Below are positions 8,991 through 47,711 of a stretch of 64,000 nt of DNA, in pieces; within the stretch, counting starts at the first letter, position 1, and every line of letters begins with the position of its first letter. Origin of the DNA: Pseudoramibacter sp. (GTDB taxonomy: Bacteria; Bacillota; Clostridia; Eubacteriales; Eubacteriaceae). The stretch lies in assembly GCF_022484225.1 (NCBI RefSeq), contig NZ_JAKVLT010000001.1, positions 744,001 through 808,000 of the forward strand. Direction: 5' to 3'. Under the pieces are notes generated by a model. That model was not told the DNA's origin, searched no databases, and saw only the letters and a list, made by a program, of their open reading frames with translations. A program made the translations under genes and the position numbers.

Positions 8991-10565
<1,575 letters not shown>

Positions 10566-10633
10566 GTAAAAACTCCTGAAAAAAATTTAAAATCAAAAAA
10601 TAATTAGCTTTATTCTATCAAAAACGGGCATAA

Positions 10634-10659
10634 AAAAACAGCCGGTGAAGGCTGTTTTT
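10634..10659 (-). terminator. Rho-independent terminator for the leftward small-gene pair
   Basis: AAAAACAGCC and GGCTGTTTTT pair over 10 bp on a 6-nt loop. On the minus strand the hairpin ends in TTTTTTT. It lies 6 bp past the stop of the Cys-rich small gene and upstream of rho. Confidence 0.85.
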
Positions 10660-10665
10660 GAAATT

Positions 10666-10818: not shown

Positions 10819-10823
10819 TTTGG

Positions 10824-11129
10824 TCATCTCCCTATTTCGTCTTTCGTTTCCATGTCCACTTCGCCTTTTTCAAGGCCGAGGACCGGGCTGATGCTGCCGG
10901 CAAGGTCGTCGATGTCGTTGATGAGGTTCCGCTTGCTCACGTCCATGGCTTCGAGGGCATCGCTCCAGAAAGGATCTTCGATGGTTTCAAAATCGTACAT
11001 GCCGAGATAGCGGTCCAGCGCGTCGTCGAGACGGTCGGCCAATTCCGAAATCTCGGTCAAAAGGTCGTTTGCGGATTGAATCATGGCGGCGGATTGTTCG
11101 GACTGTTCGGCAAATTTCTTTGAATTCAT
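10824..11129 (-). CDS. hypothetical 101-residue acidic helical protein
   Basis: A short, acidic protein dominated by predicted helices with heptad-like spacing (SAAMIQSANDLLTEISELADRLDDALDRYL). It then has a conserved-looking YDFETIEDPFWSDALEAMD stretch. The family is not recognised; it has the size and feel of DUF4298-type clostridial proteins, but the match is not convincing. The ATG follows GGGAG. Its stop overlaps the next small gene (the Cys-rich protein), so the two are probably translated together. Confidence 0.7.
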   Translation of the reverse strand: MNSKKFAEQSEQSAAMIQSANDLLTEISELADRLDDALDRYLGMYDFETIEDPFWSDALEAMDVSKRNLINDIDDLAGSISPVLGLEKGEVDMETKDEIGR

Positions 11130-11216
11130 GTCGAGGACTCCCTTCTTGTCTGATCAGGATGATCAGCTTGTTAACTATATATTATAGAATGTCTGTCCCC
11201 TTTTTTCAAATTTTTT

Positions 11217-12638: not shown

Positions 12639-12722
12639 GGCGTTTCTCTCTTTCTAAAACCCTTGTCAATTTCTTTATATGATTGTATAATAAAGAAACA
12701 TAATCAACGTTTATGTTAATTA

Positions 12723-12762
12723 AAATTCTAATTTTATTTATACAGAAATAAAATTAGAATTT
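12723..12762. promoter_or_regulatory. perfect 17-bp inverted repeat, candidate operator of the TetR-type regulator
   Basis: AAATTCTAATTTTATTT (12723-12739) and its exact complement (12746-12762) are separated by 6 nt. The element lies in the 181-bp AT-rich gap between the divergent radical SAM gene and the TetR gene, 57 bp before the latter's start. A smaller inverted repeat AACATAA/TTATGTT lies at 12697-12717. The length, symmetry and position fit an autoregulatory TetR-family operator; binding is inferred. Confidence 0.6.
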
Positions 12763-12819
12763 CAATGACAGTTTATCAAATATGTTTAGTTAATAAAAAT
12801 AAATGAAATAAAAGATAAA

Positions 12820-13389
12820 ATGGATAAGCGAATCATCAGAACTCAAAACAATTTAAAAAAGACGCTGCGGCAGATGGTCATGGAAAAGCCCTTTGAAAAA
12901 ATTTCCGTCACGGAATTGTGCAAGCGGGCGAAGACCAGCCGGATCACGTTTTACACGTATTACAGCGACAAATACGACCTGCTCAACCAGTGCTTCGAGG
13001 ACATCCAGAATGAAGCGCTGCAGCGCTACGAAGAGCTGGAGGCGGAAAATCCGGAACACCAGCTTAACATTGCGTGCCAGCATTTCATCATGGTGCTCAT
13101 TGAAATCATGGGGCCCTTTGTGGATGCGTCAGCTCAGGAGGATTCCAAGACGGCGGTGACGCTGTTTTATCACTTTACTACTCAAAATCTGAAGATGTTC
13201 AAGGAAGCCAACGCGGAGCAGTTAAAAACCCACTACAATGCGGATCAGCTGGACGCCTTCATCAGTTACGGTCTGTGGGGCTTCGTCTTTGCCAATAAGG
13301 ATAAATACGATCGGGAACAGACCGTAGAGGATACCAAGCGCCTCATTGACGATTTGCTCGCCAGCCCGATTTTTGAAAGAGAGCATTAA
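12820..13389 (+). CDS. TetR/AcrR family transcriptional regulator
   Basis: A 189-residue one-component regulator. Residues 5-50 hold the TetR DNA-binding domain: NNLKKTLRQMVMEKPFEKIS, then VTELCKRAKTSRITFYTYYSDK with the recognition helix and the family's FYxYxxDK turn. The rest is a helical ligand-binding domain of unknown specificity. The ribosome site is weak (AAGATAAA before ATG). It diverges from the B12 radical SAM gene, whose promoter region includes the large palindrome, so self-regulation and control of the radical SAM gene are plausible. Confidence 0.88.
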   Translation: MDKRIIRTQNNLKKTLRQMVMEKPFEKISVTELCKRAKTSRITFYTYYSDKYDLLNQCFEDIQNEALQRYEELEAENPEHQLNIACQHFIMVLIEIMGPFVDASAQEDSKTAVTLFYHFTTQNLKMFKEANAEQLKTHYNADQLDAFISYGLWGFVFANKDKYDREQTVEDTKRLIDDLLASPIFEREH

Positions 13390-13414
13390 AAAGCCGCTGC
13401 CTTTCGGCAGCGGC
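13388..13414 (-). terminator. terminator for the leftward small membrane protein gene
   Basis: GCCGCTGC-CTTTCG-GCAGCGGC forms an 8-bp GC stem followed on the minus strand by TTTTT. It overlaps the end of the convergent TetR gene but has no T run on the plus side. Confidence 0.75.
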
Positions 13415-13440
13415 AGGGGCAGAAAATAAAAGATGAAAAA

Positions 13441-13647
13441 TTATGCCGGTAAAATCTGCAGGTAGCAGACGGAAGTGGTGACCACGACGGTCATCACGGC
13501 GCAGAGAAGGGTGAGGGCCGCTTTGACAGCCTTCGGCCACGGTGCGTACGTCCACATCAAAATCACGCCCATGGGCCAGACGAGCAGCAGCATCAAAATC
13601 ACGAGAAACATTTGAAAAACATCGTTGTGTTTTCTTAGCGCAGTCAT
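13441..13647 (-). CDS. hypothetical small membrane protein (68 residues, two membrane segments)
   Basis: Residues 11-32 (VFQMFLVILMLLLVWPMGVILM) and 40-62 are hydrophobic and can span the membrane, joined by the short loop TYAPWPK. The ATG has GAGGAGG 8 bp upstream and a terminator follows, so it is a real, independently expressed gene. The family is not recognised. Confidence 0.7.
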   Translation of the reverse strand: MTALRKHNDVFQMFLVILMLLLVWPMGVILMWTYAPWPKAVKAALTLLCAVMTVVVTTSVCYLQILPA

Positions 13648-13914
13648 TGTGTGCGACCTCCTCTATTAGATTTACCCGTATCCTACGCGGATTGTTTTCA
13701 AACTTCAAGGAAATCGCAAAATATTATCTTTTCTTGTATTTTTTTCAGAACAATATTAAGATTACATTTTACTTCAAATTTATCATTTTGTTTTACATTT
13801 TTAAGCATATTAATTCAACAGATTATGTTATAATGTAAAGGTTCCATTTATTAGGATAAAGTGGCAAAGCAGTATTTTAATAAATTGAAATAATGAAACA
13901 ATTTGGAGGCGTTT

Positions 13915-14406
13915 ATGACAATTACAATCAAGCAATGGAATGAAAAAGCGGTCGGCGGCATGGTCCGGATCTGGAATCAGGTCGTCGCGGAAGGGAATGC
14001 TTTTCCTCAGACGAAGCTGCTCTCTTACGAAGAAAGCAAGACCTTTTTCGCCGCTCAGGACTACACGGGAATCGCCTGCGAAGAAGAAACCAGCCGGGTG
14101 GTCGGGCTGTACATTCTCCACCCCAACAACGTGGGGCGTTGCGGCCACATCGCGAACACCAGCTACGCGGTGGACCGGGAACTCCGGGGCCAGCACATCG
14201 GACGCCGGCTCGTCGAAGATTCCATTGCACAGGCCCGGGAACTGGGCTACGGCATCATTCAGCTCAACGCCGTGGTGGCGACCAACAAGACGGCGCTGAA
14301 ACTGTATCAGGATATCGGCTTCAAGCCTCTGGGCGAAATTGAAAGGGGCTTTCGGATGGATGACGGCCATTACGAAACGATCATTCCTCACGTGTATTAT
14401 TTGTAA
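13915..14406 (+). CDS. GNAT family N-acetyltransferase
   Basis: A 163-residue GCN5-type acetyltransferase. Motif A, the acetyl-CoA pyrophosphate site, is ELRGQHIGRRLVEDSIAQAREL (R-x2-IG-R/L pattern). The later NAVVATNKTALKLYQDIGF is the family's motif B, and the protein ends with the typical GF-x-LGEI strand region. The ATG at 13915 has GGAGG 7 bp upstream; a TTG at 13903 would place that site inside the gene. Substrate unknown. Confidence 0.88.
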   Translation: MTITIKQWNEKAVGGMVRIWNQVVAEGNAFPQTKLLSYEESKTFFAAQDYTGIACEEETSRVVGLYILHPNNVGRCGHIANTSYAVDRELRGQHIGRRLVEDSIAQARELGYGIIQLNAVVATNKTALKLYQDIGFKPLGEIERGFRMDDGHYETIIPHVYYL

Positions 14407-14432
14407 AATTTGCAGGAAAAGAGAGGCAGACA

Positions 14433-15156
14433 ATGCGCATTACAGATTTAGGCACGGATTTTGTGCACAAGCTGGTGTCTTGAAAAAGACGGCCTTAAGG
14501 TGCTGGTGGACACCGGCTACGCCGAAGACTGGCCCCATTTTACACAAAAGGCGGAGGCCGCCGGCATCGACTGGCGCGCGCTGGATTTTCTGTTTCTGAC
14601 CCACGCCCACGACGATCACGCCGGGTTTTTAAACGCCCTGCTGGAACAGGCGCAGAACCTTCGGGTGATCGCGTCGCACAAGGCTCTTGGGGGCCTGCGC
14701 AGGGGACAGAACGGCCCCGGCGGCGGGGTGCCTGACGCCGACGCGGCAGCTGTCTGCCGGCAGATGGTCAAAGCAGGCCGGGGACGGCATTTATTCCCGA
14801 AACTCGACGAAAATTTTTTACCTCGTTTTCTGTGGCTCGAAGACATCGATCTCGATGCTTTTCTGCCCGGAGCTCAGGGCCTTTTTCTGCCCGGCCACAC
14901 CGATGACAGTGTCGGTCTGCTTTGGGAAGGCCTGCTCTTCTGCGGCGATGCGGCCCAGAACCGGCCGGATTATCCCTTGAAGACCACCATCTGGATTCAG
15001 GATATGGCGATTTATACAAAAAGCTGGCAGACTATGATCGGCGCGAAGCCGGCGCGCATTTACCCCGGGCACGGCGATCCTTTCGGGCCCGAAGCCCTCG
15101 AAGCCGGACTCGGCGCGTTGTCCCAAATCCGCCTCAACCCTTCGATTAAAGCATAA
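14433..15156 (+). pseudogene. metallo-beta-lactamase-fold hydrolase gene with a 5' frameshift
   Basis: A good ribosome site (GAGAGG) and ATG at 14433 encode MRITDLGTDFV, a normal start for this fold, but that frame stops at 14481-14483. The body of the protein continues in another frame from about 14461 (SWCLEKDGLKVLVDTGY). It carries the metal motif THAHDDHAG, the later LPGHTDDSVG, FCGDAAQ and IYPGHGDP. Removing a single base near 14465 joins the two halves into one sensible protein of about 240 residues. The alternative is initiation at a TTG at 14461 with no ribosome site. Natural pseudogene, sequencing error or programmed shift cannot be told apart here. Confidence 0.7.
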
Positions 15157-15556
15157 AAAAACGCCCCGCAGCAGCTGCCGCGAGGCTTTGAATCAATTCC
15201 GCCAAACCGATTCTCTTTTACGTCTTTACAAGATAATATTATCTTTATGGTTATTATAGGTGGATCCGACTAAAAAAGCAAGCGTTTTCAAGAATAATCT
15301 CAGGTGCGTTAAGATTGGCCTAAGATATAGTTTTAATCCTAATTTTACATTTGATTTTATCAAAACCAGTTTTATCTTTTAATTTTTAAGAGCGTCTAAG
15401 CGTTTTCACCTTTATTTTTTTTATTTTACAATTCGTTTTTTATTTCATCAATTTCTTACAGACTTTTACAAAAGCACGATAGCGGCCTTTTTTTAATTAT
15501 TGTTTACTAAGAGATGTTCACAATTTAAGCAGAATAAATTTGAAAGGGGAATGTGC
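15157..15556 (+). promoter_or_regulatory. 400-bp AT-rich leader upstream of the aminoethylphosphonate operon
   Basis: There is no credible gene in this stretch. It holds an imperfect GC-rich hairpin just after the upstream gene (15168-15190, weak terminator), a perfect 16-bp palindrome AAGATAATATTATCTT (15230-15245), and two copies of AAGCGTTTTCA (15280-15290 and 15398-15408) 118 bp apart. The repeats and palindrome are reasonable regulator sites for the operon starting at 15557; no regulator gene is adjacent. Confidence 0.5.
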
Positions 15557-16318
15557 ATGCTTCAGCTCAAAGGAATTTCAAAAAATTTTGACGGCGTTGA
15601 GGTATTAAAGCAAATCGATATGGATGTGGGAGACGGCGAGATCGTGTCGATCCTTGGGCCTTCAGGGAGCGGCAAGACCACGCTTTTGAACATCATCCTG
15701 GGGATTCTCGATCCCGATGACGGCGCGATTATCTACAACGGCGAAGATCTGACCCACGTGTCCATGGAACAGCGGGGATTCAACATTGTCTTTCAGGACT
15801 ATGCCCTGTTTCCGAATCTGAACGCCTACGGCAACATCACCTACGGCCTGAAAAACAAGCCCGACGTTTCTTCGCCAAAAGAGGTGGAGGATCTGATCGA
15901 CCTGCTGGAACTCAGAGATCACCTTCAGAAACCCATCGACGAACTCTCCGGGGGGCAGAAGCAGCGGGTGGCCATCGCCCGGACCCTGGTGATGAAACCG
16001 GCGATCCTCCTCATGGATGAACCCCTTTCCGCCATGGACGGGATCATCAAAGAATCCATCAAGGAAAAAATCAAAGAAGTGGCAAAGCGCTTCAACTTGA
16101 CGACAATCATCGTCACGCACGATCCCGAAGAAGCCCTGAGCCTTTCGGACCGTGTGATGATTCTCGGTAAGGGCACCGTCGAACAGTACGACAAGCCAGA
16201 AAACATCATCCACCATCCGGCCAACGCCTTCATCGAAGATTTTATTCTGAGTCAGCTCAAGATCAAGCGGCGTAACATCCGGACACTTTTTAACACCCCG
16301 AAAGCGGCGGAGGCGTAA
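15557..16318 (+). CDS. phnT: ABC transporter ATP-binding protein, 2-aminoethylphosphonate type
   Basis: A 253-residue ATPase subunit on the cytoplasmic face. Walker A GPSGSGKTTLL, the Q-loop VFQDYALFPNL, signature LSGGQKQR, Walker B ILLMDEPLSAMD and the switch His in VTHDPEEAL are all intact. I used the ATG at 15557 because AAAGGGG lies 8 bp upstream; the open frame reaches back to 15500. It begins an operon with a permease, a binding protein, phnW and phnX, which defines the likely substrate as 2-aminoethylphosphonate. By domain type alone it could be a spermidine/iron-type ATPase. Confidence 0.85.
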   Translation: MLQLKGISKNFDGVEVLKQIDMDVGDGEIVSILGPSGSGKTTLLNIILGILDPDDGAIIYNGEDLTHVSMEQRGFNIVFQDYALFPNLNAYGNITYGLKNKPDVSSPKEVEDLIDLLELRDHLQKPIDELSGGQKQRVAIARTLVMKPAILLMDEPLSAMDGIIKESIKEKIKEVAKRFNLTTIIVTHDPEEALSLSDRVMILGKGTVEQYDKPENIIHHPANAFIEDFILSQLKIKRRNIRTLFNTPKAAEA

Positions 16319-16320
16319 TC

Positions 16321-18060
16321 ATGCAGATCACATCCACACTTTCAGCGGGGGGCACGAACCTGTCGGACCGCGCTGAAAACAAGCTCAAAACCGGAAGACG
16401 CCGGTCCAAGACGCCCCTTTCGGTCGTCTCCAAGCGCCAGATGCGCGGCGTCTTCATCGCCATCGCCGTGCTGTTTTTGATTTTCGCGTGTTTCCCGATG
16501 GTCATGGTGTTCATCAAGAGCCTGTCCGTCGGCGGCAAAGCTTCTGTTGCAGCCTACCGGGACGTGTTTTCCTCTAAAGAAGTGTTCGTGGGGATGCGCA
16601 ACAGTTTCGGCGTCGCCGGGCTGTCGGCCCTGATTTCCACGGGTCTGGCTTTTGTTTTGGCCTATACCTTGAACTTCACCGCGGCGCCCAAGGGCCTGAA
16701 GCATTTCATCAGCGTGTTTGCGATGCTGCCGATGCTCATCCCGACGATCACCTACGGCTTTGCGCTGATTTATTCTTTTGGGAAGCAGGGTTTTCTGACC
16801 CGGCTGTTTCACCATCAGTTCTTTTCGATTTACGGCACCCGGGGGCTGGTCATCGGCTTTGTCATCTACACGACGCCCATCGCCTTCATGCTCATCGAAA
16901 ACACGATGCATTTCATCGACAAGAAATACCTCATCGTTTCGAAAATCATGGGGGACAATCCCGGACGGCGCTTCATGAACACCGTGGGCATTCCCATGCT
17001 CGGCACTTTGGCGACGGCCTTTATTCAGAGCTTTACCCTGGCCTTCACCGATTACGGTATTCCCATGTCCATCGCCGGCAACATGGACCTGGCGGCGACT
17101 TTGCTCTACGGGCGGATGCTCGGCACCTTCCCGGACTTCGCGGCGGGCTCGGTCATCGCCATTCTCATGCTTATTCCCGCGGTGATCAACGTGTCCCTGA
17201 TTCAGTACCTCAAGCGCTTCAACGTCCGCTATTCGTCGACCTCGGACATGAAGATGCGCCGGGATCCGGTTCGGGACGGCGCTTTCTCGGCAGCTTCCCT
17301 TGCGATTCTGATCTGCATGCTCATGATCTTCGCGGTCATCTTCGTGGTGCCTTTTGTGAATCAGTGGCCCTACAACGTGGCCTTTTCTATGAAGCATTTC
17401 AAGGCGGTCTTTTCGGATCTGGAACTGTCCCAGGTCGTGAAGAATTCCCTGACGGTGTCCCTGCTCTCGGCGCTGATCGGCACCGTGGTCGCCTATGGCG
17501 CGGCGCTGTTTTCCGGCCGGACCGAAGGCAGCCGCCTCGAAGGACAGACCATGGACACCATCGCCTTAACCATCAACACCATTCCAGGCATGGTCATCGG
17601 CGTGGCCTACATGCTGGCCTTTAAAGGGACGGCGATTCAGAACACTTTTGCCATTCTCATCATCTGCAACATCGTGCACCTGTTCCCGTCGCCGTACCTG
17701 ATGATCAAAAACGCCCTGGAAAAGCTCAACCCCCAGTGGGAAAAGACCGCGGCTCTGATGGGCGATTCGTGGCTGAAGACCATGGGCCGGATCATGACGC
17801 CGAACGTCTGGCCGGCGCTGCTCGAAGCCTTTTCCTTTTACTTCATCAACGCGATGGTGACGGTGTCCGCCGTGATCTTCGTCGCCGGGGCCCACACCAT
17901 GGTCATGACGGTGAAGATTCAGGAACTCCAGCATTTTGCAGATTTTGACGACATCTTTGTGCTGTCGGTGCTGATTTTTATCTTCAACATCGCCGCAAAA
18001 GGCATCATCAGCGCCATAAAACACGTTACGGCCCATCGCCGTCTTGCTATAAAATCTTAA
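16321..18060 (+). CDS. ABC transporter permease, two fused permease domains (PhnU-PhnV type)
   Basis: A 579-residue membrane protein with two complete binding-protein-dependent permease halves, about residues 45-300 and 320-575. Each carries the cytoplasmic EAA-type loop: IVSKIMGDNPGRRFMNTVGIPML in the first and KTAALMGDSWLKTMGRIMTPNVWP in the second. A basic N-terminus precedes the first helix. The fused layout is that of iron(III)/2-aminoethylphosphonate permeases, whereas Salmonella splits the function into phnU and phnV. It starts 2 bp after the ATPase gene. Confidence 0.85.
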   Translation: MQITSTLSAGGTNLSDRAENKLKTGRRRSKTPLSVVSKRQMRGVFIAIAVLFLIFACFPMVMVFIKSLSVGGKASVAAYRDVFSSKEVFVGMRNSFGVAGLSALISTGLAFVLAYTLNFTAAPKGLKHFISVFAMLPMLIPTITYGFALIYSFGKQGFLTRLFHHQFFSIYGTRGLVIGFVIYTTPIAFMLIENTMHFIDKKYLIVSKIMGDNPGRRFMNTVGIPMLGTLATAFIQSFTLAFTDYGIPMSIAGNMDLAATLLYGRMLGTFPDFAAGSVIAILMLIPAVINVSLIQYLKRFNVRYSSTSDMKMRRDPVRDGAFSAASLAILICMLMIFAVIFVVPFVNQWPYNVAFSMKHFKAVFSDLELSQVVKNSLTVSLLSALIGTVVAYGAALFSGRTEGSRLEGQTMDTIALTINTIPGMVIGVAYMLAFKGTAIQNTFAILIICNIVHLFPSPYLMIKNALEKLNPQWEKTAALMGDSWLKTMGRIMTPNVWPALLEAFSFYFINAMVTVSAVIFVAGAHTMVMTVKIQELQHFADFDDIFVLSVLIFIFNIAAKGIISAIKHVTAHRRLAIKS

Positions 18061-33038: not shown

Positions 33039-33610
33039 TGAACGTCTATCAGATCATCTGCGGCACGAAGGCCGAAGGCCCCGGCAAACGGACGGCCATC
33101 TGGATGCAGGGCTGCAGCCGGCACTGCAGCGGGTGCATGCTGCCCGAGACCTGGTCTTTTGTACCCCGCACCCTGATTGCGCCGGAGACCGTGATTGAAA
33201 ACGTGCCGGCGGACAACGAAGGCATCACCGTCCTCGGCGGCGAGCCCTTTGAACAGCCTGAAGCGCTGGCGGCGCTGCTCAGGGCAGCGAAGGCGCGGGG
33301 TCTGTCGACGATCGTGTTTTCAGGCTATACCTACGGGGAACTCAAGGCCCTGCCGGCGGTACAACGCCGCCGGATTTTTGAATCTGTCGATGTTTTGATC
33401 GACGGGGCTTACGAAAAAGACAAGCGGAGCTTTGCGGTGCCGATGATCGGCTCCAGCAACCAGCGGTTTTATTTTTTGTCGGACCGCTACACGATGGCCG
33501 ATATCCCGGCAAATAAAATCGAGGTCCGGATTCAAAAGGACGGCACGCCGATGTTAAGCGGCATGGGGGATTTTGAAAAGCTCGTGAGAAAGTTGAGGTG
33601 TGAACATTGA
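33038..33610 (+). CDS. NrdG-like radical SAM (4Fe-4S single-cluster) protein
   Basis: A 190-residue radical SAM protein of the activase type. The cluster motif CSRHCSGC is at residues 26-33 (CxxxCxxC). AIWMQGCSRHCSGCMLPETW and ITVLGGEPFEQPEALAALL (the GGEP SAM-binding motif) look like the NrdG/PflA-like 'anaerobic RNR activating protein' branch. However, no class III reductase is present nearby and the gene sits inside the Ycf46-like operon. It is therefore more likely to modify or activate a partner encoded there. It is coupled on both sides (1-bp and 4-bp overlaps). Confidence 0.85.
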   Translation: MNVYQIICGTKAEGPGKRTAIWMQGCSRHCSGCMLPETWSFVPRTLIAPETVIENVPADNEGITVLGGEPFEQPEALAALLRAAKARGLSTIVFSGYTYGELKALPAVQRRRIFESVDVLIDGAYEKDKRSFAVPMIGSSNQRFYFLSDRYTMADIPANKIEVRIQKDGTPMLSGMGDFEKLVRKLRCEH

Positions 33611-35265
33611 AATTTAAGCCGGAACTGCAGCAGGCCCTGGCCAATCTGTTTAAGGCGCGGTTTCCCTACGTCTACATGCCCACGTGGGAAGAACTCCGGG
33701 CCGAGGCCTTTGTCCAGTCCATCGCGGAAGATGAAGCTCTGATCCGCCACGTCCGGACGGTTTACACCTGGACCCAGACCGACGGCCTCGTCCGCAAGGG
33801 CGACGGCCAGAAAATCGCCGGAACCGCCGATCCCATCAAGGCCCTGGAATGGATCGAAAAGTGTGACGAAAACGCGGTGTTCGTCATGAAAGACATGCAC
33901 ATTTATTTCGGCGTGCCCGGCCGGCCGGTGGCGACTGACCTCGTCCGGAAGATGCGGGACCTCATCCCGTCCCTGCACAACTCTGAGGCCCGGAAAAACG
34001 TCGTGCTCATTTCGCCCCATCTGGTGATTCCCGGGGACATGGAAAAAGAAATCACCGTGTTCGATTTTCCCCTGCCCGACGTGGCGGAAATCGAGGACAT
34101 GATGGACCGGATCGTGGCGGAAAACGCCCTGGACCCTCACTGCATCACCCCGGAAGAAAAAGAAAAGCTCGCGAAGTCGGCCCTGGGACTGACTTTGCAG
34201 GAAGCGGAAAACGCCTTTTCCCGGGCGATCGTGGCCAATCACGGCCTGGACATCAACGCCCTGCCGGTCATCTTTGACGAAAAGAACCAGGTCATCAAGA
34301 AGACGGGCATCCTCGAATTTGTCAAAAGCGACCTGACAATTGATGACATCGGCGGTCTGGACAACCTCAAGAGCTGGCTGCTCAAACGGAAAAATTCGTG
34401 GCTCGACGCCGCGAAAAAGTACAACATCCCGGCGCCGAAGGGGGTGCTCATCACCGGAATTCCCGGGTGCGGCAAGAGCCTGACCGCGAAGGCCATGAGC
34501 ACGATCTGGAACCTGCCTTTGTTGAAGCTCGACATGGGCAAGATTTTCAGCGGCATCGTCGGCAGCTCCGAAGAGAACATGCGCCGGGCCATCGAGACGG
34601 CCGAGGCGGTGGCGCCGTCGATTCTGTGGGTCGACGAAATTGAAAAGGGGCTGGCCGGGGTCAACGGCAATGGCGATTCCGGCACGTCGACCCGGGTGTT
34701 CGGGACCTTCCTCACGTGGATGCAGGAAAAAACCGCCCCAGTATTCGTGGTGGCGACGGCGAACCAGATCAGCACCCTGCCGACGGAACTTTTGAGAAAA
34801 GGCCGCTTTGACGAAATCTTTTTTGTGGATCTGCCGACGGCGTCGGAACGCAAGAAGATTTTCGAAGTGCATTTGAACAAGCGGGTCGCCCATTCCGAAG
34901 TGGGCCGGGACCTGCCGGTTGACGACGCCCTGCTGACCCGGCTGAGCCAGGCCTCGAGAGGCTTTGTGGGGGCGGAAATCGAACAGGCGGTGATCACGGC
35001 TTTGTACGAAGCCTTTTTCCACCAGCGGGGTCTCAAAGAAGAAGACCTCATGTACGCCATTCGGGGGACGGTGCCCCTGTCGGTGACCCAGAAAGAGCAG
35101 ATTCTGGCCCTGCGCAGATGGGCCGATGTCCGGGCCGTCTCGGCGACCCCGAAGGAAGATCTGGAAACGTACAAGCAGCCCCTGCCGCCCGATGACGACA
35201 CGGAAGCGCCGCCTAAAAAAGACGATGTGAACGCCCAGCGCGGCGGCCGGATGCTCGATTTTTAA
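33607..35265 (+). CDS. AAA+ ATPase, Ycf46-like
   Basis: A 552-residue ATPase. The N-terminal 240 residues form a Ycf46-type recognition domain (VYTWTQTDGL, then FVMKDMHIYF and VVLISPHLVIPGDMEKEITVFDFPLP). The AAA module has Walker A GIPGCGKSLTAKAM near residue 285, GGIVGSSEEN-like SGIVGSSEENMRRAIETAEAVAP, Walker B ILWVDEIEKG near 338, GDSGTSTRVFGTFLTWMQEK, sensor 1 VATANQ and GRFDEIFFVDLP with the arginine finger. All catalytic residues are present. Ycf46 is known from plastids and cyanobacteria, where it has been linked to CO2 use. Start: TTG overlapping the previous stop. Confidence 0.85.
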   Translation: MKFKPELQQALANLFKARFPYVYMPTWEELRAEAFVQSIAEDEALIRHVRTVYTWTQTDGLVRKGDGQKIAGTADPIKALEWIEKCDENAVFVMKDMHIYFGVPGRPVATDLVRKMRDLIPSLHNSEARKNVVLISPHLVIPGDMEKEITVFDFPLPDVAEIEDMMDRIVAENALDPHCITPEEKEKLAKSALGLTLQEAENAFSRAIVANHGLDINALPVIFDEKNQVIKKTGILEFVKSDLTIDDIGGLDNLKSWLLKRKNSWLDAAKKYNIPAPKGVLITGIPGCGKSLTAKAMSTIWNLPLLKLDMGKIFSGIVGSSEENMRRAIETAEAVAPSILWVDEIEKGLAGVNGNGDSGTSTRVFGTFLTWMQEKTAPVFVVATANQISTLPTELLRKGRFDEIFFVDLPTASERKKIFEVHLNKRVAHSEVGRDLPVDDALLTRLSQASRGFVGAEIEQAVITALYEAFFHQRGLKEEDLMYAIRGTVPLSVTQKEQILALRRWADVRAVSATPKEDLETYKQPLPPDDDTEAPPKKDDVNAQRGGRMLDF

Positions 35266-35285
35266 AGGAGGAAAAAGGAGGAAAA

Positions 35286-35750
35286 ATGTCAGCCTGTTTA
35301 TTTTTAGTGCCCCTGGCCGTGGGGCTGATCACGTCGGCGGTCGAAGGCACCGCTGCCGTGGTGTACGCCTGCGAACACAGCAGGCGGGGGAAAAGCGCGC
35401 CGATCCAGACGAAGTTCTGCGACACGGCCATTCTCGAAGAAACTCTCAAAGAACACGGGGTGCCTTACAAAATCAAAAGCGACGGAGAAATCACCGCGGA
35501 TTTTACGTCCGGCAAGATCCGGTATTTCAGAACGGCGGCCGATCAGCCGTTTCAGATGCAGGTCTTCGGCGTGAAAGACATGGACGCGGTGGTGTGCAAT
35601 GTGCAGGCGATCGAGAAAGAATACGGCAGCAACGTCCAGCAGTACACGTACAACCGCCTCAAAGAAAATCTGCCTGAGCACATGTCCGTCGCGTCGGAAG
35701 AAATTTTAGAGGACGATTCGATTTTATTGACCCTAGAGGTTGAAGATTAA
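35286..35750 (+). CDS. DUF1257 (Ycf35-like) protein
   Basis: A 154-residue protein. The N-terminal 30 residues are hydrophobic (CLFLVPLAVGLITSAVEGTAAVVYA). The remainder (FCDTAILEETLKEHGVPYKIKSDGEITADFTSGKIRYF, then YGSNVQQYTYNRLKENLPEHM) follows the DUF1257/Ycf35 pattern. In photosynthetic genomes DUF1257 keeps company with DUF2997 and Ycf46, as here. The hydrophobic N-terminus suggests membrane contact. It is preceded by two tandem AAAGGAGGAAA ribosome sites. Confidence 0.68.
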   Translation: MSACLFLVPLAVGLITSAVEGTAAVVYACEHSRRGKSAPIQTKFCDTAILEETLKEHGVPYKIKSDGEITADFTSGKIRYFRTAADQPFQMQVFGVKDMDAVVCNVQAIEKEYGSNVQQYTYNRLKENLPEHMSVASEEILEDDSILLTLEVED

Positions 35751-35767
35751 GGAACAGGAGAACGGCA

Positions 35768-37078
35768 ATGGGATTCAGGTACCACAGATCCGTCACCATC
35801 TGCAAAGGGGTGCGGGTGAATTTTTCAAAATCCGGGCCGAGTCTGTCCATCGGCGGCCGGGGCCACACGGTGAACATCGGCAGCCGGGGCGCCAGGGAAA
35901 CTTTTTCGATTCCCGGGACGGGGCTGTCCTACAGCCGCCAGATCGGCGGCGGGAGCCGGGGCAGCCGGTCCGCGCCGCGGCGGACGGTGCAGGTGCCGAG
36001 CCATATCACGATGCACATGGACGACGCCAGCGGCGCCGTGCGGATTGCAGACGGCAGCGGCCGAACCATCACTGATCCCTCGGTCTTGAGAAAGATCCGC
36101 GCCACGGACGCGTACAAAGCACAAAAGGCGAAGCTTCAGGAACAGCGTCTGGAAAAAGCCGAAGCGGCGGTGGAGAGCAGCGAAGCGGAAAACCGCAAAT
36201 TTTTGGAAATCTATAAACTGTCGGCCAACGTCAAACCCCGGGCCGCCTTTGAAAAAGCACTCCAAAATATTAAACCGGCAGAAGATGTCCAGGCCGCATA
36301 CCCGACGCCGATGCCAAGTCAGGAAGAAATTAAAGCGGCCCTTGAGGCCGAAGCCAAAGCAAAAGTCAAAGCCTCGGTGTTTAAGACCGGAAAACTCCGG
36401 AAAGCCTATGTGGCCGAACACTTCGGGCCGGCCTACGCCGCGGCCGTCGAAAAATGGCGCGACGCAAAAGACGCCTTTGACGCCAAAGAGACGAAAAGGC
36501 ATCTCACAGCGGTCCTGAAGAATCAGCAGGTTTGCGAAGAACGCCGGGCTTTTTTAAAAAAGCTGACGGCGGGAGACGACGAAGCGGTGTGCGCCGCCTT
36601 TGATCATTGGATCGCGTCCTGCGAGCTGCCCGTCGAGATCCACATTCAGTACGACTGGCAGCGGGAAAACGGCCTCATGTGCCTCGACGTCGATCTGCCG
36701 GAAATTGAAGACCTGCCGGACACGAAGATGACCGCCACGTCGACGGGCAAATTAAAAGAAAAGAAGCGGACTCAGACCGAACTCCGGGAAACCTACGCGA
36801 CCCTCGTGTTCGGGCTCGCGGTGTTCATCGCGTCCCACACCTTTAATCTTTCGCCGGCGATTGAAAAGATTCTGATTTCCGGCTACACCCAGCGGCGCAA
36901 CCGGGCCGGCGAAATTCAGAACGATTATATTTATTCACTGAAGTTCCCGAGAGACCGCTTTGAAAAGACGCCGGTGTCCCACGTTGAACCCCGAAACTTC
37001 TGTCTGGATGCCGAAAGCCGGTGCATCTTGACGGTGACGTCGTTATTTAAATCGATTGAACCTTACGAAATCTATTAA
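35768..37078 (+). CDS. DUF4236 protein with long coiled-coil region
   Basis: A 436-residue protein. Residues 1-58 are the DUF4236 domain (MGFRYHRSVTICKGVRVNFSKSGPSLSIGGRGHTVNIGS, then PGTGLSYSRQI), a small beta domain often found at the start of bacterial proteins of unknown role. A Gly/Arg-rich linker, a charged coiled coil (about 115-165) and a larger C-terminal domain follow. That domain holds hydrophobic strands (TLVFGLAVFIASHTFNLSPAIEKILISGYTQR) and ends in a DYIYSLKFPRDRF segment. It closes the six-gene operon, 17 bp after the DUF1257 gene. Confidence 0.72.
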   Translation: MGFRYHRSVTICKGVRVNFSKSGPSLSIGGRGHTVNIGSRGARETFSIPGTGLSYSRQIGGGSRGSRSAPRRTVQVPSHITMHMDDASGAVRIADGSGRTITDPSVLRKIRATDAYKAQKAKLQEQRLEKAEAAVESSEAENRKFLEIYKLSANVKPRAAFEKALQNIKPAEDVQAAYPTPMPSQEEIKAALEAEAKAKVKASVFKTGKLRKAYVAEHFGPAYAAAVEKWRDAKDAFDAKETKRHLTAVLKNQQVCEERRAFLKKLTAGDDEAVCAAFDHWIASCELPVEIHIQYDWQRENGLMCLDVDLPEIEDLPDTKMTATSTGKLKEKKRTQTELRETYATLVFGLAVFIASHTFNLSPAIEKILISGYTQRRNRAGEIQNDYIYSLKFPRDRFEKTPVSHVEPRNFCLDAESRCILTVTSLFKSIEPYEIY

Positions 37079-40074: not shown

Positions 40075-40454
40075 TCATGCCGTTTCCTCTTTCATCAGTT
40101 CATTCAGTGGGATAAAGCCCACAAGGTCATAGGAAATGCGGATGTTCTGCCGCCGTTTGCCGCTGCTCTTGTCAGGGGCTTCAATGTAGATCGCCTTGAC
40201 AAGCTCCCGCAGAGCATAAGGGGTAAGCTCGTCTAAATCCTCATATTTGTGTACCCGTTGGATAAACTGTTCCAAATTCTCAATCTGTCGTTCCTGTACT
40301 TCGATTTCCTGCTGTAAGCTCTGGATTTCCACTTTGAGCTGCGTCTACTCGTCCTCGTAAGTCCTGCTCATCATGGAAAACCGTTCATCCGTAATACGCC
40401 CAGCCACGTTGTCCTCATAGATGCGGATAAACAGACGGTCAAGTTCCGTCAATT
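40075..40454 (-). pseudogene. C-terminal remnant of a large serine recombinase (DUF4368 type)
   Basis: The minus-strand frame reads LTELDRLFIRIYEDNVAGRITDERF, then MMSRTYEDE, an in-frame TAG at 40345-40347, and then TQLKVEIQSLQQEIEVQERQIENLEQF and ELVKAIYIEAPDKSSGKRRQNIRISYDLVGFI. That is the coiled-coil and C-terminal tail of Tn-type large serine recombinases. The catalytic and zinc-ribbon domains are absent upstream, where a stop ends the frame. So it is a truncated, stop-bearing relic that shows how the island may once have moved. Confidence 0.85.
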
Positions 40455-40474
40455 ACAGCATATCCTGTTGAGAT

Positions 40475-41605
40475 TCACTGTGTATTCTCCGGCAGTATTG
40501 CTGCTTTCAAACGGAACATGATGTACTCTACGGCATGTGCTTTCGGAAACAGATACTCTATTCTTTTACAACGATCCAACACCCATTTGTCACGGGAATG
40601 CTTCATTTCTTCCGTGATAACAGGCAAGTCCAATCCTTTGCGAACGTAATTCATTCCTCGCCATGCGTCCTTGTCCAAGAAACCATGTACTATGAGATAG
40701 TGGAATATATCATCACGAAAAGCAATCAGTTCCGACGGAGCATAATCGAGGTAGCGATTCATAAAAACTGCCTCATCGTCCCATGCCCCGGTTGCGTAAA
40801 TAATTCCTGAAAATGAAATCAAGTCAGCAAAAGTGTTCGTGCCAAGAATACTCTGCTCATTATAACCATCATAGTAATCCAAAAGCGTTTGCCATGCGCT
40901 CAACGATATATTGACGCACGATGCATCCACTGTTTTGCTATGAAAAGTTTTATGAATAGACGAGCACTCCAAGCGAAACACAAAGCTGATATTAGAAAGG
41001 GATGCACTGAGTTTTTCAGAATTCATTTTCAGTGAAACGGAAACATCTGATTCTTTTTTTCGCAGCCAGTGATTTTTCAATATAACAAGAAAATCATCGC
41101 GCAAATTTTTCGGCAAGACAATATCAAATTCTGGAACATGCTCTCCATATCCCCATAGAGTCTGCCACGGAACATTGTGCCCATCCGGAATAAGAGTGGC
41201 TTTGTCCTGTTCGCAGGTTTTCTTTTTCGACAAATCAAAACCGTCAAGATAGTCTGTTTCCCACTGAACAGAATGACACACAGGACAATGGTAATGGGGT
41301 GGAAGTGGATTGCCAAAGGTGATTCCCAAAAGATATAGGATAAAGCTGGAGCCGGCACATCCGCGCATCCAATATGGATGATTGTTCTTTTTGAGCCAGA
41401 CTGCCAGCTCATATAAGGCGGCAACATCAAGCACCGTATCGCTGCGCTCCATAGCCGCCCATTCGTCGATGATCCGCTTCTTAATCAGTTCATCAGGCTT
41501 GTCACCATATTTTTGATAGAGGGCGTTTTCAATAATCTGCCGGAGCTTACACTCGACTTCGAAAGCAGATAAGCCGCTAAACATATATTCAAAATCCATC
41601 AGCAT
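40475..41605 (-). CDS. PolC-like protein missing much of the polymerase catalytic core
   Basis: A 376-residue protein that lines up with separate stretches of Gram-positive DNA polymerase III PolC. Residues 15-75 match the helical lead-in; residues 78-110 are the unmistakable MRGCAGSSFILYLLGITFGNPLPPHYHCPVC; then GFDLSKKKTCEQD, DGHNVPWQTLWGYGEHVPEFDIVL. After a gap, residues 258-370 match the fingers region (TFADLISFSGIIYATGAW, CRDDIFHYLIVHGF, MNYVRKGLDLPV, KRIEYLFPKAHAVEY). The palm motif PDxD reads PEFD, and the third catalytic-Asp segment is missing. It therefore probably binds DNA or a partner without polymerising. It is coupled to the gene upstream. Confidence 0.75.
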   Translation of the reverse strand: MLMDFEYMFSGLSAFEVECKLRQIIENALYQKYGDKPDELIKKRIIDEWAAMERSDTVLDVAALYELAVWLKKNNHPYWMRGCAGSSFILYLLGITFGNPLPPHYHCPVCHSVQWETDYLDGFDLSKKKTCEQDKATLIPDGHNVPWQTLWGYGEHVPEFDIVLPKNLRDDFLVILKNHWLRKKESDVSVSLKMNSEKLSASLSNISFVFRLECSSIHKTFHSKTVDASCVNISLSAWQTLLDYYDGYNEQSILGTNTFADLISFSGIIYATGAWDDEAVFMNRYLDYAPSELIAFRDDIFHYLIVHGFLDKDAWRGMNYVRKGLDLPVITEEMKHSRDKWVLDRCKRIEYLFPKAHAVEYIMFRLKAAILPENTQ

Positions 41606-41606
41606 A

Positions 41607-42317
41607 TCAACCCCTTCCCGTTGCGGTTTTCAAAAACAGTTCCCTTATATAAAGCATATCTCGGTACAGCGGAATAAATAGTTTTTCATGCCCTCTGAAA
41701 CCGTCAAGATTTGTGACCTGCGGATGGCAAAAGCTGATAACCGGCACTTGCTTTTCGTTGATCTCAGTGAAGTAATACCACCAATCCCGGTCAAAAGTCT
41801 TGGATCGAAAAGATTCCCATTTCGTTGAAATCGGTAACACATACTCTTTGAGCAAAGTCGCATTTCCAGTAATTCCAGATGCGGTTAGTCCGCAGCAAAT
41901 GATAATACCCGGATTGCACAAGCAGATTTCTTCGTAAATCATTTCATGCTGTGCTTGCACCGCTTTCAGAAGCTCATTTCCGGCGGTACGGCTAACACCG
42001 CCCTCTTTCTTCAAGTTCATAACAGCAATGCGTTTTAGCTGCTCCACCCGTTTTGCTGTGGACATATCCTGCGGATATTCCTCGTCACCATCCAACAGAG
42101 CTTTTGTCCACCTGCCGATGTTGTTCCAAGTTTTCCACCCACTTCCGTCATTACGCAGGTCGGCGCACAAATCCCGCTCGGATTGGCAGTTCATATCTCG
42201 AAGAACAAATAGAATATGCGGGCTATCGTAGTGTTCAGAATCAACAATTCCATCCCGAATAAACGCATTAAAGTCATACTTGCTTTTCCATTTTATAAAC
42301 AGCGCATCAAAATTCAT
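41607..42317 (-). CDS. possible uracil-DNA-glycosylase-fold protein, coupled to the PolC-like gene
   Basis: A 236-residue protein. The order of motifs resembles the UDG superfamily: ILFVLRDMNCQS near residue 35 (place of the GEAPG/GMNP motif), RIAVMNLKKEGG near 95, PGIIICCGLTASGI near 137 and ISFCHPQVTN near 195 (place of HPS). The similarity is by pattern only and the first motif lacks glycines, so activity is doubtful. The PolC-like gene starts 2 bp after its stop. Together they suggest a DNA-metabolism or defence pair. The alternative is an unrelated family. Confidence 0.5.
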   Translation of the reverse strand: MNFDALFIKWKSKYDFNAFIRDGIVDSEHYDSPHILFVLRDMNCQSERDLCADLRNDGSGWKTWNNIGRWTKALLDGDEEYPQDMSTAKRVEQLKRIAVMNLKKEGGVSRTAGNELLKAVQAQHEMIYEEICLCNPGIIICCGLTASGITGNATLLKEYVLPISTKWESFRSKTFDRDWWYYFTEINEKQVPVISFCHPQVTNLDGFRGHEKLFIPLYRDMLYIRELFLKTATGRG

Positions 42318-42372: not shown

Positions 42373-43011
42373 CTATTCATCTTTTAGATGATCTCCGAAC
42401 AAAACGGAAATACCAAATTGAAGCCGCCACCCTCTTTTGTAAGTATCATACTCAATCCATTCGCCTGCTGCCTGTAAGGCGGAAATATACCGTTGAATCG
42501 TCCTCGTCGGCATCTCCAACTTATCAACAAGCTCCTGTGTCTTGATACCGGGATGAGAACGAATCAGGGATAAAATCATCAAGCAGTCCGCCATTTTCTT
42601 GCTGAAATCTTTCGCTTTTTTAGATTTGCTGTGTGCCGATAAAAGGTGATATTGCAGATTAGTGGCAAGTTCTTCAAAATTTTCATAACACTTGAACTTT
42701 GCCCGCAAATGCCTTGGGGGCTTGGGAGAACCAAGCCAGAATACGGTTTCATCGGTACAGCCTCCGATCTCCGTGTAATAATCAATAATCATTTCTTTGC
42801 TGTCTGAATCCAAGGCAGCTGCATTGATAATGAGCGCCGCCGCAGAAATGGCAATCAGATCGGTTGGAGCATCGGTGTCAAGCAGTTCGTACCCCTTTGC
42901 TGGCAAAGCGTTTTTGACCAATTCATTCTGTTCTTTGCTGAGTCCGAATGTTGTCACTCTGCCATCCGGGATAGTGATATACTCCCCGTTCGGGGCAAGA
43001 AATGTTTTCAT
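42373..43011 (-). CDS. HTH-domain protein, probable regulator of the island operon
   Basis: A 212-residue protein. The C-terminal 75 residues hold a winged-helix/HTH_11-like domain: MADCLMILSLIRSHPGIKTQELVDKLEMPTRTIQRYISALQAAGEWI, the DeoR/YafY-like two-helix signature. The N-terminal 130 residues (LLDTDAPTDLIAISAAALIINAAAL, then GGCTDETVFWLGSPKPP) are not recognised. AGGAGG lies 6 bp before ATG. It is leftward, 55 bp upstream of the UDG-like gene, so it may control that unit. Confidence 0.7.
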   Translation of the reverse strand: MKTFLAPNGEYITIPDGRVTTFGLSKEQNELVKNALPAKGYELLDTDAPTDLIAISAAALIINAAALDSDSKEMIIDYYTEIGGCTDETVFWLGSPKPPRHLRAKFKCYENFEELATNLQYHLLSAHSKSKKAKDFSKKMADCLMILSLIRSHPGIKTQELVDKLEMPTRTIQRYISALQAAGEWIEYDTYKRGWRLQFGISVLFGDHLKDE

Positions 43012-44769: not shown

Positions 44770-44881
44770 TGACGCGTTCGAACTATCATCGAGTGCGTAA
44801 CGGACAGTTTAATCGCTGTCCGTTTTTTCTTTGCCGCAAAGCGCCGAATAAAATATGGTAAAATAAGATACAACGATTGAA
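44770..44881 (+). repeat. left copy of ~112-bp direct repeat (terminator plus promoter of the R-M gene)
   Basis: The copy runs from GACGCGTTCGA to CAACGATTGAA and aligns with 50466-50582 at roughly 80-85 percent by eye. It contains a hairpin terminator (ACGGACAG/CTGTCCGT at 44800-44823, then T6) and the AT-rich stretch AAAATATGGTAAAATAAGATACAACG, the likely promoter region of the R-M gene. Confidence 0.85.
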
Positions 44882-44900
44882 GACAGGGGAGGACACGGCA

Positions 44901-47711
44901 ATGACAGACGCAGAACAGCGCGAAGCAGCACGACAATTTATCAATCGATGGCAGGGCAAGGGCAACGAAGACGAAGACGGCCGGTCCTATTGGATCGAAC
45001 TGCTGCACGACGTGCTCGGGATGGAAGATGTGACCCAGCATGTCAATTTTGAAAAGAAGGTTTATGTCGACGGCAATAAAAAGCGCATTGACGCCTACTT
45101 GCCAGAAACAAAGGTTATCATCGAGCAGAAGAGCCTGGGCAAGGCACTGGATCAAAAAATTCACAACTCCGGCGATATTGACTTGACGCCCTACGAGCAG
45201 GCGAAGCGCTACAGCGATAACTTGGATTTCTCGGAGCGAGCGCGGTGGATCGTGACCTGTAATTTTGCAGAAATCTGGATTTACGATATGAACCAGGTGA
45301 ACACGAAGGATTTTGAGCCGACGAAGATCCGCCTGCCGGAGCTGCAGGACAAGTACCCGATGCTGGATTTTCTGATCAAACAGGACGTGAAGCAGGTCTC
45401 TCCTGAAATGAAGGTGTCGATCGAAGCCGGGAACATCGTCGGCAAGCTCTACGACGCTTTTGCCAAGGAGTTTGGCCTGCCGGAGGGAACGCCGAAAAAA
45501 GAGACGCCCGAAGAAAAGGCACAGCGCGAAGCGGATTTAAGAAGTCTGAACGCGTTGTGCGTCCGCCTGGTCTTCTGCCTGTACGCGGAGGACGCGGGGA
45601 TTTTCGATCGGGCGTCTTTCCACGATTACGTCGCGAGCTTTGAGCCGCAGCGGCTCCGCGGCGCGTTGAAGGAATTGTTTAAAATCCTCGACACGCCGAT
45701 CGTGGAGCGCGACCGTTTTCTCGCCGACGATCTCGCCGCCTTCCCCTACGTCAACGGCGGACTTTTTGCAGACGAGTCCCTTGAGATTCCGCCCTTTACC
45801 GAAGAACTGAAGCATGTGCTCTTGATCGACGCGTCGGAAAATTTCGACTGGCGGGGGATTTCCCCGACGATTTTCGGCGCAGTGTTCGAATCGACCTTGA
45901 ACCCGGAAACACGGCGCAAGGGCGGGATGCACTACACGAGCATCGAGAACATTCACAAAGTCATCGATCCGCTGTTCCTCGACGATTTGAAATCCGAATT
46001 TGCCGAAATCAAAGCCGAGCAGGTTTGGAAGACGAAGAAGCGTCAACTCGAAGCGTTCCAGCGCAAGCTGGCGTCGCTTAAATGGCTGGACCCGGCCTGC
46101 GGCTCCGGCAACTTCCTAACCGAGACCTATTTGTCGGTGCGGCGAATCGAAAACGAGGTGATCTCCGAGTTGCAGCACGGGCAGATCATGTACGCGCTCG
46201 AAGGGATGCGCAACCCGATTCAAGTCTCGATTTCGCAATTCTACGGGATCGAAATCAACGACTTCGCCGTCACCGTCGCCAAGACCGCGTTGTGGATCGC
46301 CGAAAGCCAGATGATGCAAGAAACTATATCTATCATTAAGATGGACCTCGATTTTCTGCCGTTGACCACTAACGCCAATATCGTCGAAGGCAACGCCCTA
46401 CGGATCGATTGGAATGACGTCGTGCCAGCAAGTGAGCTCAACTATATTATGGGGAATCCGCCGTTTGTGGGATACGCTTATCAGAGTCAAGAACAAAAAA
46501 ATGATTTAAAAAATATCAAGGCTATAACGAAAAAAAGTATCGATTATGTCGCTGGATGGTATTACAAAACGGCAGAATATTTCAATCATACAAATATACG
46601 CGCGGCGTTTGTTTCAACGAATAGTATCTGCCAAGGTGAACAAGTTGTTAATGTATGGCAGATACTTTTCGAGCATTATCAGGTTCACATTGACTTTGCT
46701 TATCGCACCTTTAGATGGGATAGTGAAGCCAATGAAAAAGCACACGTTCATGTCGTTATTGTTGGATTTAGTCAAACAGCTAATGAAAAGAGAAAAAGGA
46801 TCTTTGATAATGATAATGTAAAAGAGGTTGATAATATCAGTGCATACCTTGTTGGATCAGATAATGTTTTTATCAGTCGCAGGACCAAACCCCTTAGCAA
46901 TGTTCCAGCCATGACACGGGGCAGTCAGCCGACAGATAATGGTAATTTAATTCTTACAGAAGAAGAGAAAAATGAATTGATAAAAGCAGAGCCACAAGCC
47001 GGCGTTTGGATTCGTCCGTTTATGATGGGTAAAGATTTTATCAATCGAAAACCGCGCTACTGTCTGTGGCTTGTCGATGCAGATCCGAAAGTTTTGCGGA
47101 AGTGTCCGTTAGTTTTAAAACGCATTGAAGCTGTCAAGACGTTTCGGTTGAACAGTAAAAAAGCCGCAACGCGCAAGAAAGCGGAAACACCGCAGTTATT
47201 TGATGAGATCAAAGCCGTTAATACAAATTATGTTGCGATTCCTGTTGTTTCTTCAGAACGGAGACGATATATCCCGATTGATTTATTATCTTCAAAAATA
47301 ATAGCGGGAAATAAATTATTTATGATGCCAAACGCAACGCCTTACGAATTTGGCATTTTAACTTCAAACGTCCATATGGCATGGATGCGAACAGTTTGTG
47401 GAAGATTGAAATCAGATTATAGTTATTCCAATACCATTGTTTACAACAATTTCCCTTGGCCAACACCTACTGACAAACAAAAAGCGCTGATCGAAAAAAC
47501 GGCGCAGGGGATTCTCGACGCCCGCGACCTTTATCCGGACAGTTCCCTAGCCGATCTTTACGACCCGCTGACGATGCCGCCGGAACTTCGCAAAGCACAT
47601 CAGATGAACGACCGCGCGGTGATGCAGGCTTACGGCTTTTCGACGAAGATGAGCGAATCGGATTGTGTCGCGGAACTCATGAAGATGTATCAAAGGCTGA
47701 CGGAAAAATGA
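44901..47711 (+). CDS. type IIG (MmeI-like) restriction-modification enzyme
   Basis: A 936-residue single-chain endonuclease/adenine methyltransferase. The N-terminus has the MmeI-type helical start and PDDEXK-like nuclease core (RIDAYLPETKVIIEQKS, residues about 62-78). The methyltransferase has LDPACGSGNFL near 397 and NPPF near 518 (N6-adenine type), then a target-recognition domain and a conserved C-terminus (YNNFPWPTPT, DLYDPLTMPPELRKAHQMND). DNA from about 46440 to 47460, covering the recognition part, is AT-rich while both flanks are GC-rich, which points to domain exchange. I chose the ATG at 44901 with GGGAGG upstream. Confidence 0.9.
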   Translation: MTDAEQREAARQFINRWQGKGNEDEDGRSYWIELLHDVLGMEDVTQHVNFEKKVYVDGNKKRIDAYLPETKVIIEQKSLGKALDQKIHNSGDIDLTPYEQAKRYSDNLDFSERARWIVTCNFAEIWIYDMNQVNTKDFEPTKIRLPELQDKYPMLDFLIKQDVKQVSPEMKVSIEAGNIVGKLYDAFAKEFGLPEGTPKKETPEEKAQREADLRSLNALCVRLVFCLYAEDAGIFDRASFHDYVASFEPQRLRGALKELFKILDTPIVERDRFLADDLAAFPYVNGGLFADESLEIPPFTEELKHVLLIDASENFDWRGISPTIFGAVFESTLNPETRRKGGMHYTSIENIHKVIDPLFLDDLKSEFAEIKAEQVWKTKKRQLEAFQRKLASLKWLDPACGSGNFLTETYLSVRRIENEVISELQHGQIMYALEGMRNPIQVSISQFYGIEINDFAVTVAKTALWIAESQMMQETISIIKMDLDFLPLTTNANIVEGNALRIDWNDVVPASELNYIMGNPPFVGYAYQSQEQKNDLKNIKAITKKSIDYVAGWYYKTAEYFNHTNIRAAFVSTNSICQGEQVVNVWQILFEHYQVHIDFAYRTFRWDSEANEKAHVHVVIVGFSQTANEKRKRIFDNDNVKEVDNISAYLVGSDNVFISRRTKPLSNVPAMTRGSQPTDNGNLILTEEEKNELIKAEPQAGVWIRPFMMGKDFINRKPRYCLWLVDADPKVLRKCPLVLKRIEAVKTFRLNSKKAATRKKAETPQLFDEIKAVNTNYVAIPVVSSERRRYIPIDLLSSKIIAGNKLFMMPNATPYEFGILTSNVHMAWMRTVCGRLKSDYSYSNTIVYNNFPWPTPTDKQKALIEKTAQGILDARDLYPDSSLADLYDPLTMPPELRKAHQMNDRAVMQAYGFSTKMSESDCVAELMKMYQRLTEK

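Follow-up and report, generated by a model that had tools for sequence, protein, structure and literature searches.

The window analysed here, a stretch of 64,000 nucleotides in all, carries on its minus strand a set of three genes, P0003, P0002 and P0001. P0001 (376 aa; nt 40475–41605) is a catalytically dead derivative of PolC, as judged from profile and phmmer matches and from alignment. It is preceded by P0002 (236 aa; nt 41607–42317), a protein with a predicted UDG-superfamily fold (AlphaFold2 and Foldseek, together with a 35-sequence alignment), and directly upstream of P0002, where an earlier note on this DNA had placed an HTH gene, Pfam domains identify the HTH protein P0003 (nt 42373–43011). 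A single base separates the P0002 stop from the P0001 start, and a ribosome-binding-like stretch for P0001, GGAAGGGG (nt 41611–41619, minus strand), lies within the 3' end of P0002, which bears out the close coupling claimed for these two genes. At its other end P0001 is abutted by the C-terminal remnant of a serine recombinase (nt 40075–40461, minus strand), recognised by three-frame translation and a step in G+C content (0.42–0.46 in the cassette, compared with about 0.54 in the left flank), and this remnant marks the edge of an acquired cassette. The gene set is small and horizontally acquired. The last residues of P0001 may derive from the recombinase junction, and its C-terminus may have been cut there.

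A few kb from the triad lies a gene for a 944-aa DNA methyltransferase-type restriction protein with weak matches to BREX PglX (nt 44877–47711, plus strand). A DUF4236-like gene and an AAA gene (nt 33607–37078) are also present in the window, and genes of the same two kinds occur near a P0002-family gene at locus L132 (nt 2687–8687).

The PolC-derived protein

P0001 matches the NCBIfam PolC model (E = 3.5e-47; 160.7 bits, below the equivalog cut-off of 873), Pfam DNA_pol3_alpha (E = 1.4e-6) and, by phmmer, the solved PolC structures 9qpc (E = 1.7e-34) and 3f2b (E = 3.3e-33), the latter two in two blocks. Block A (residues 27–163; nt 41117–41527, minus strand) corresponds to the N-terminal part of the PolC palm and contains RGCAGSS, NPLPPHYHCPVC and DGHNVPW, while block B (residues 257–369; nt 40499–40837, minus strand) corresponds to the fingers and contains RDDIF, VRKGL and FPKAHA. 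The blocks are 93 residues apart, compared with about 196 in PolC. On the strength of these matches, the homology over palm and fingers is far above chance, and the PolC origin proposed in the earlier note stands.

Alignment with 25 PolC sequences places PEFD (nt 41123–41134, minus strand) at the catalytic PDID site and NISFV at KLDIL, so that the altered palm motif and the loss of the third catalytic Asp, both read earlier from the letters alone, were recovered. P0001 thus does not have the three catalytic Asp (PDxD plus KxD) used as the criterion of membership. The exonuclease and PHP parts are missing, as had been claimed, and so are the OB part and the C-terminal HhH/clamp-binding end. As the catalytic columns are altered and these parts are gone, P0001 cannot be a polymerase. 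What it keeps is the N-terminal part of the palm, the dNTP-phosphate Gly-Ser motif (RGCAGSS), the fingers, FPKAH and three of the four zinc Cys (CPVC...CEQD). Retained clamp-binding residues, which the earlier note had hoped to map, are not among these, the clamp part of PolC being absent. An AlphaFold2 model of P0001, built from six sequences, was too poor for use (pLDDT 56.5).

The resident polC of the same genome (C1: 1.926–1.928 Mb) lies 1.1 Mb away and is only 32–36% identical to P0001. A recent, near-identical parent had been named as refuting evidence; at this distance P0001 is not a recent polC pseudogene, and a recent internal deletion was ruled out as its origin. It could instead be a functionless fragment of an old second polC, paired with P0002 by chance. 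The truncation at the recombinase junction would fit such decay, as would the lack of a close orthologue in the genomes, phages and plasmids searched: the middle segment (residues 164–256) gave only chance-level matches in 391 genomes, and among phages and plasmids P0001 matched only sites with ordinary PolC spacing. G+C content by codon position, entered on the same side, gives no signal either way. However, an open frame of 376 codons has persisted with identity to any PolC at about 33%, the PolC motif blocks are conserved, the start is placed one base past P0002 behind the ribosome-binding-like stretch, and purifying selection acts on dead relatives from operons of an equivalent kind (see below). 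Decay is therefore considered quite improbable.

The UDG-fold and HTH proteins

The AlphaFold2 model of P0002, built with 35 sequences, has a pLDDT of 92.9. In a Foldseek search of the PDB it was led by human TDG, Deinococcus MUG and viral and bacterial UDG (SAUGI/UDG), the best match having E = 2.8e-3, a probability of 1.00 and a TM-score of about 0.5. The model thus supports a UDG-superfamily alpha/beta fold, the likeness being one of fold level, and the guess originally made from motif order is upheld to that extent. Eight residues (D22, G23, N101, K103, K104, G107, H198 and P199) are invariant across the 35 sequences of the family, a pattern more suggestive of a working pocket than of decay. 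At the place of GxDPY the family has LKE or LRD, and N101 and H198-P199 occupy plausible UDG positions in the alignment.

The family was found at 38 loci in genome contigs from many phyla, often standing alone; the nearest relative of P0002 (L099, 58%) is such a solitary gene. A search of phages and plasmids returned one Vibrio cassette. Other members have defence genes as neighbours, among them GmrSD and KAP at L064 and SIR2 at L122. A paralogue in the same genome as the window (L059, nt 10276–16462; C1, about 1.840–1.846 Mb) adjoins an AAA ATPase, DUF6414, BREX BrxL and peptide deformylase.

Some further members deserve mention in their own right. Lone P0002-family genes occur in marine gammaproteobacteria (L122/L008, on a plasmid of Vibrio sp. 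HDW18, and L103 and L107–L111). That of HDW18, near the SIR2 gene in surroundings resembling an integron cassette array, is a candidate single-gene defence. At L100 (nt 1993–3611) the gene behind a P0002-family member (36%) also encodes a protein with UDG-like motifs (IGQDFG, YHPGA). At L134 (nt 6105–6905) the family member lies immediately 5' of a genuine polC in the ordinary uppS-cdsA neighbourhood, and this polC was left out of the derived copies.

P0003 has only HTH domains in Pfam and no WYL domain. Its N-terminal domain adjoins WYL by itself in L162 and L163, and is fused to HTH in L136, L206–L208 and L211. Neither P0003 nor the FtsZ-like protein u311 had a match in viral contigs. Behind the P0003-like gene of L211 (nt 4461–6707) come a PD-(D/E)XK protein and, apparently, an HhH-GPD glycosylase (both by eye); here another glycosylase fold possibly replaces that of P0002.

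PolC-derived proteins in other genomes

Searches of 398 and 101 genomes recovered short PolC-derived proteins in another class of the phylum (family f114). The copies whose sizes were recorded, those of the wider operon class included, are of 467 and 863 aa (L041), 354 aa (L042), 896 aa (L043), 555 aa (L117), 438 aa (L128) and 756 aa (L208), and further loci are L085, L086 (three genes in one operon) and L087–L090. Matches at L093, L096 and L097 proved to be contig-edge pieces of genuine polC and were rejected.

The neighbourhoods are conserved. In the f114 operons a WYL regulator and an HD protein are followed by a nuclease (PDDEXK_4 or Mrr), or by an FtsH-like and a UDG-like protein, then by an FtsZ-derived protein and finally by one to three PolC-derived proteins. 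A WYL gene lies within 10 kb at nine of the twelve f114 loci (L041–L043, L085–L092 and L095), compared with about 1.2% expected per locus from the 25 WYL genes of that type in about 41 Mb; since some of these loci come from related species, they are not wholly independent.

The catalytic triad is missing in 13 of the 19 copies of the polymerase core, P0001 among them, and all catalytic Asp are kept in the PolC copies of L043, L086_863, L087, L088, L092 and L208. Two pairs of dead short copies are free of stops and have dN/dS values of 0.19 (L086_503/L085_481) and 0.27 (L089/L090). With the triad lost and dN/dS this low, selection is acting on something besides catalysis.

In a tree of 40 sequences, in which P0001 was too long-branched to be placed, the PolC-derived copies nest among host PolC with at least two origins. 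One of them, L088_928, groups as sister (99/89) with the polC located about 5 kb away in its own genome. By this topology, resident polC genes gave rise to PolC copies on at least two occasions. Full-length second polC genes beside WYL fragments and HD genes (L189/L190 and L191) and a frameshifted copy (L095) look like early stages of such recruitment.

Related operons and their other eroded proteins

The window is tied to a wider class of operons by several loci. One operon at L208, in a genome of the window's own class, encodes a WYL protein, two UDG-like proteins, a P0003-like protein, an RNase J-like protein, a PD-(D/E)XK protein and a PHP-PolC-derived protein; one of the UDG-like genes is a clear member of the P0002 family (E = 1.4e-8), and all three components of the window are thus found together, in P0002-family, P0003-like and PolC-derived form. 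Overlapping same-strand genes at L128 encode FtsZ-like, PolC-derived, SpoVK-type AAA, WYL, DnaQ-like exonuclease and P0002-family proteins. L117 has WYL, RNase J-like, P0002-family and DnaE-derived proteins, two that are DnaA-derived and one that is PolC-derived. In L136 a P0003-like gene precedes P0002-family, probable PD-(D/E)XK and RNase J-like genes, and in L206 and L207 a P0003-like gene precedes RNase J-like and PD-(D/E)XK genes. The class was defined by an HTH/WYL regulator together with a P0002-family protein or nuclease and a replication or division derivative, all on one strand, and this combination is present in the window, L208, L128 and L117. The exact three-gene set of the window is not conserved as a unit and recurs in looser form. 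The recurrence elsewhere that the earlier note had called for was therefore found, and its pairing holds in these related sets, but the two genes do not form the true unit, which is larger: modular WYL/HTH operons with several eroded proteins.

According to NCBIfam and Pfam, these operons or their relatives also carry proteins derived from FtsZ, DnaE, DnaA, DnaG, DnaB and UvrD. The GTP loops are broken in FtsZ-derived proteins of L043/L085–L087, L160 and L161_329, and PDIDxD is lost in all three DnaE-derived copies of L162/L163 that span the site. DnaA-derived copies consist of the AAA domain only, DnaA-like members keeping their active-site or Walker motifs; the DnaG-derived protein is a weak match (E = 1.4e-4), the DnaB-derived copy has an internal deletion, and a UvrD N-domain copy has lost Walker A. 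RNase J-like and FtsH-like members have intact motifs. The ORF calls in these relatives are mechanical, and several of the PD-(D/E)XK nuclease assignments are motif readings by eye. The most frequent Pfam families in a set of 124 cluster proteins are DNA_pol3_alpha, WYL, PHP, HD, AAA, Bac_DnaA and PD-(D/E)XK, and the nucleases include PDDEXK_4 and Mrr. As a rough control, the same references were applied to 37 P0002-family loci (E ≤ 1e-8), where copies were found only in L117, L128, L132 (FtsH-like) and L136, in addition to the genuine polC of L134. At L161 (nt 457–12279) two FtsZ homologues, one with a broken GTP loop, have an apparent vWA protein and a kinase-like ORF as neighbours.

From sequence comparison, then, the hallmark of the class is a set of putative copies of host PolC, DnaE, DnaA, DnaG, DnaB, UvrD and FtsZ that were recruited from resident genes and shortened, many without their catalytic or nucleotide-binding residues. 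Beside them stand regulators of the WYL/HTH type and, usually, HD proteins and nucleases of the PD-(D/E)XK type, or else glycosylase-fold enzymes.

Such genes might interfere with or replace host replication for the benefit of a mobile element, with no role in defence. The cassettes are horizontally acquired, as the G+C step and recombinase remnant of the window, a recombinase in L206 and a relaxase-like ORF near L128 attest, and some copies keep their catalytic residues. Loss of active sites under purifying selection would, however, be of no use for replication; neither capsid nor terminase appears among the best 25 of the 66 Pfam families of the 124 cluster proteins, and BREX, GmrSD, Mrr and WYL contexts indicate defence. 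This is the least likely of the readings considered.

It is also rather unlikely that P0001 is a targeting scaffold, still binding primer-template or forks and directing its partner, a nuclease or a protein of glycosylase fold, to phage DNA that is being replicated and whose bases may be modified. The Gly-Ser motif and fingers that it retains would suit such a role, as would the gene set of L211 and the precedent of the UDG-fold protein Brig1, an antiphage glycosylase (PMC11078745). On the other side, P0001 lacks the HhH and clamp-binding parts, and fork targeting would make little sense for the FtsZ-, FtsH- and RNase J-derived proteins that these operons also encode.

Proposed role

The reading that we tentatively prefer is that the HTH–UDG-fold–PolC set is a small member of this modular, mobile, defence-like operon class and that its dead copy most likely serves as bait. 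Host DNA polymerase and FtsZ are both known targets of inhibition by phage proteins (PMC11237401), and because these are the kinds of protein copied, decoys or baits are favoured. P0001 would offer a PolC palm and fingers surface to whatever takes over or stops host replication, be it a phage protein or a small inhibitor. Binding to P0001, or the ensuing damage, would free P0002 and/or P0003, and P0002, its conserved pocket intact, would then act on nucleic acid. On this view the window triad would be a pared-down version in which P0001 is the single bait, P0002 the enzyme acting as effector and P0003 the regulator or sensor. Not every copy can be a dead bait, since several PolC-, RNase J-, FtsH- and DnaA-like members keep catalytic or Walker motifs. 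Counted against the bait reading were also the single bait of the window triad, the absence of a PD-(D/E)XK gene from its operon, the solitary state of the nearest P0002 relative, the P0001 C-terminus at the recombinase remnant, and the low pLDDT of P0001.

The main rival, in our estimate unlikely, is that the truncated proteins are dominant-negative toxins which, when released on infection, poison the host replisome, initiation or the Z-ring and bring replication to a halt, as abortive infection or dormancy. An AAA-only DnaA, an FtsZ without its GTP loop and a PolC of palm and fingers only are plausible dominant-negative forms, and origin from a resident gene equally suits an inhibitor of the resident protein. 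Most clusters, however, already have PD-(D/E)XK or Mrr nucleases as obvious effectors, the RNase J- and FtsH-like members have kept their active sites, and it is doubtful that P0001 could join the resident replisome, as it has diverged to 33% identity at best.

Taking the bait reading further, and with more reserve, the operons may constitute a new form of immunity or conflict: mobile and of WYL/HTH type, they would deploy eroded PolC, DnaE, DnaA, DnaG, DnaB, UvrD and FtsZ as decoys against phage takeover proteins and link these decoys to nucleases and enzymes of UDG fold. The window triad would then be a minimal example. The possibility of an undescribed defence system, raised in the earlier note, is supported, defence being a predicted function. 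If the copies are decoys, the sequences of these operons would amount to a natural catalogue of the essential host proteins that phages attack, and any one copy could serve to capture the phage factor directed against its host counterpart. Should they be dominant-negative effectors, they would be natural inhibitors of replication and division.

Comparison with known systems

With PolC (NF001688/TIGR01405; 3f2b, 9qpc), P0001 shares the two blocks, the Gly-Ser motif, most zinc Cys and the fingers motifs. Unlike PolC it has PEFD, scores 161 bits against 873, and is without exonuclease, PHP, the third catalytic Asp and the clamp/HhH end. P0002 resembles Brig1, whose defining activity is the excision of alpha-glucosyl-hmC, and the UDG-superfamily antiphage glycosylases (PMC11078745) at the level of the fold and in its defence-island context, and ADP-ribosylglycohydrolase and SIR2 neighbours are found with both Brig1-type genes and the P0002 family. 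The family differs from Brig1 in having its own motifs (DG, KE, NxKKxxG and HP), in its spread over many phyla, and in being partly tied to WYL/HTH, PD-(D/E)XK and mimic genes.

The WYL proteins BrxR and CapW regulate defence loci (PMC9122601, PMC9122588), and a WYL regulator in a defence-like operon is common to BrxR/CapW-type loci and most relatives of the window. The window regulator P0003 differs from BrxR and CapW in being an HTH protein without WYL. Of these WYL defence papers (PMC9122601, PMC9122588), that on BrxR makes no mention of DNA polymerase, FtsZ or DnaA.

PADLOC models gave no match for P0001, P0002 or P0004, and their matches to P0003 were confined to the HTH part of WYL/CARF models. 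No description of a system with eroded copies of replication and division proteins was found in the open-access literature searched. It is unexpected that mobile operons with nucleases should maintain catalytically dead PolC and FtsZ under selection.

In decoy or guard immunity, attack on a host target is sensed through a copy of it or through a guarded complex, as with the integrated decoys of plant NLRs and the retrons that guard RecBCD. What distinguishes the present operons from these is that a whole series of essential replication and division proteins is represented in eroded form.
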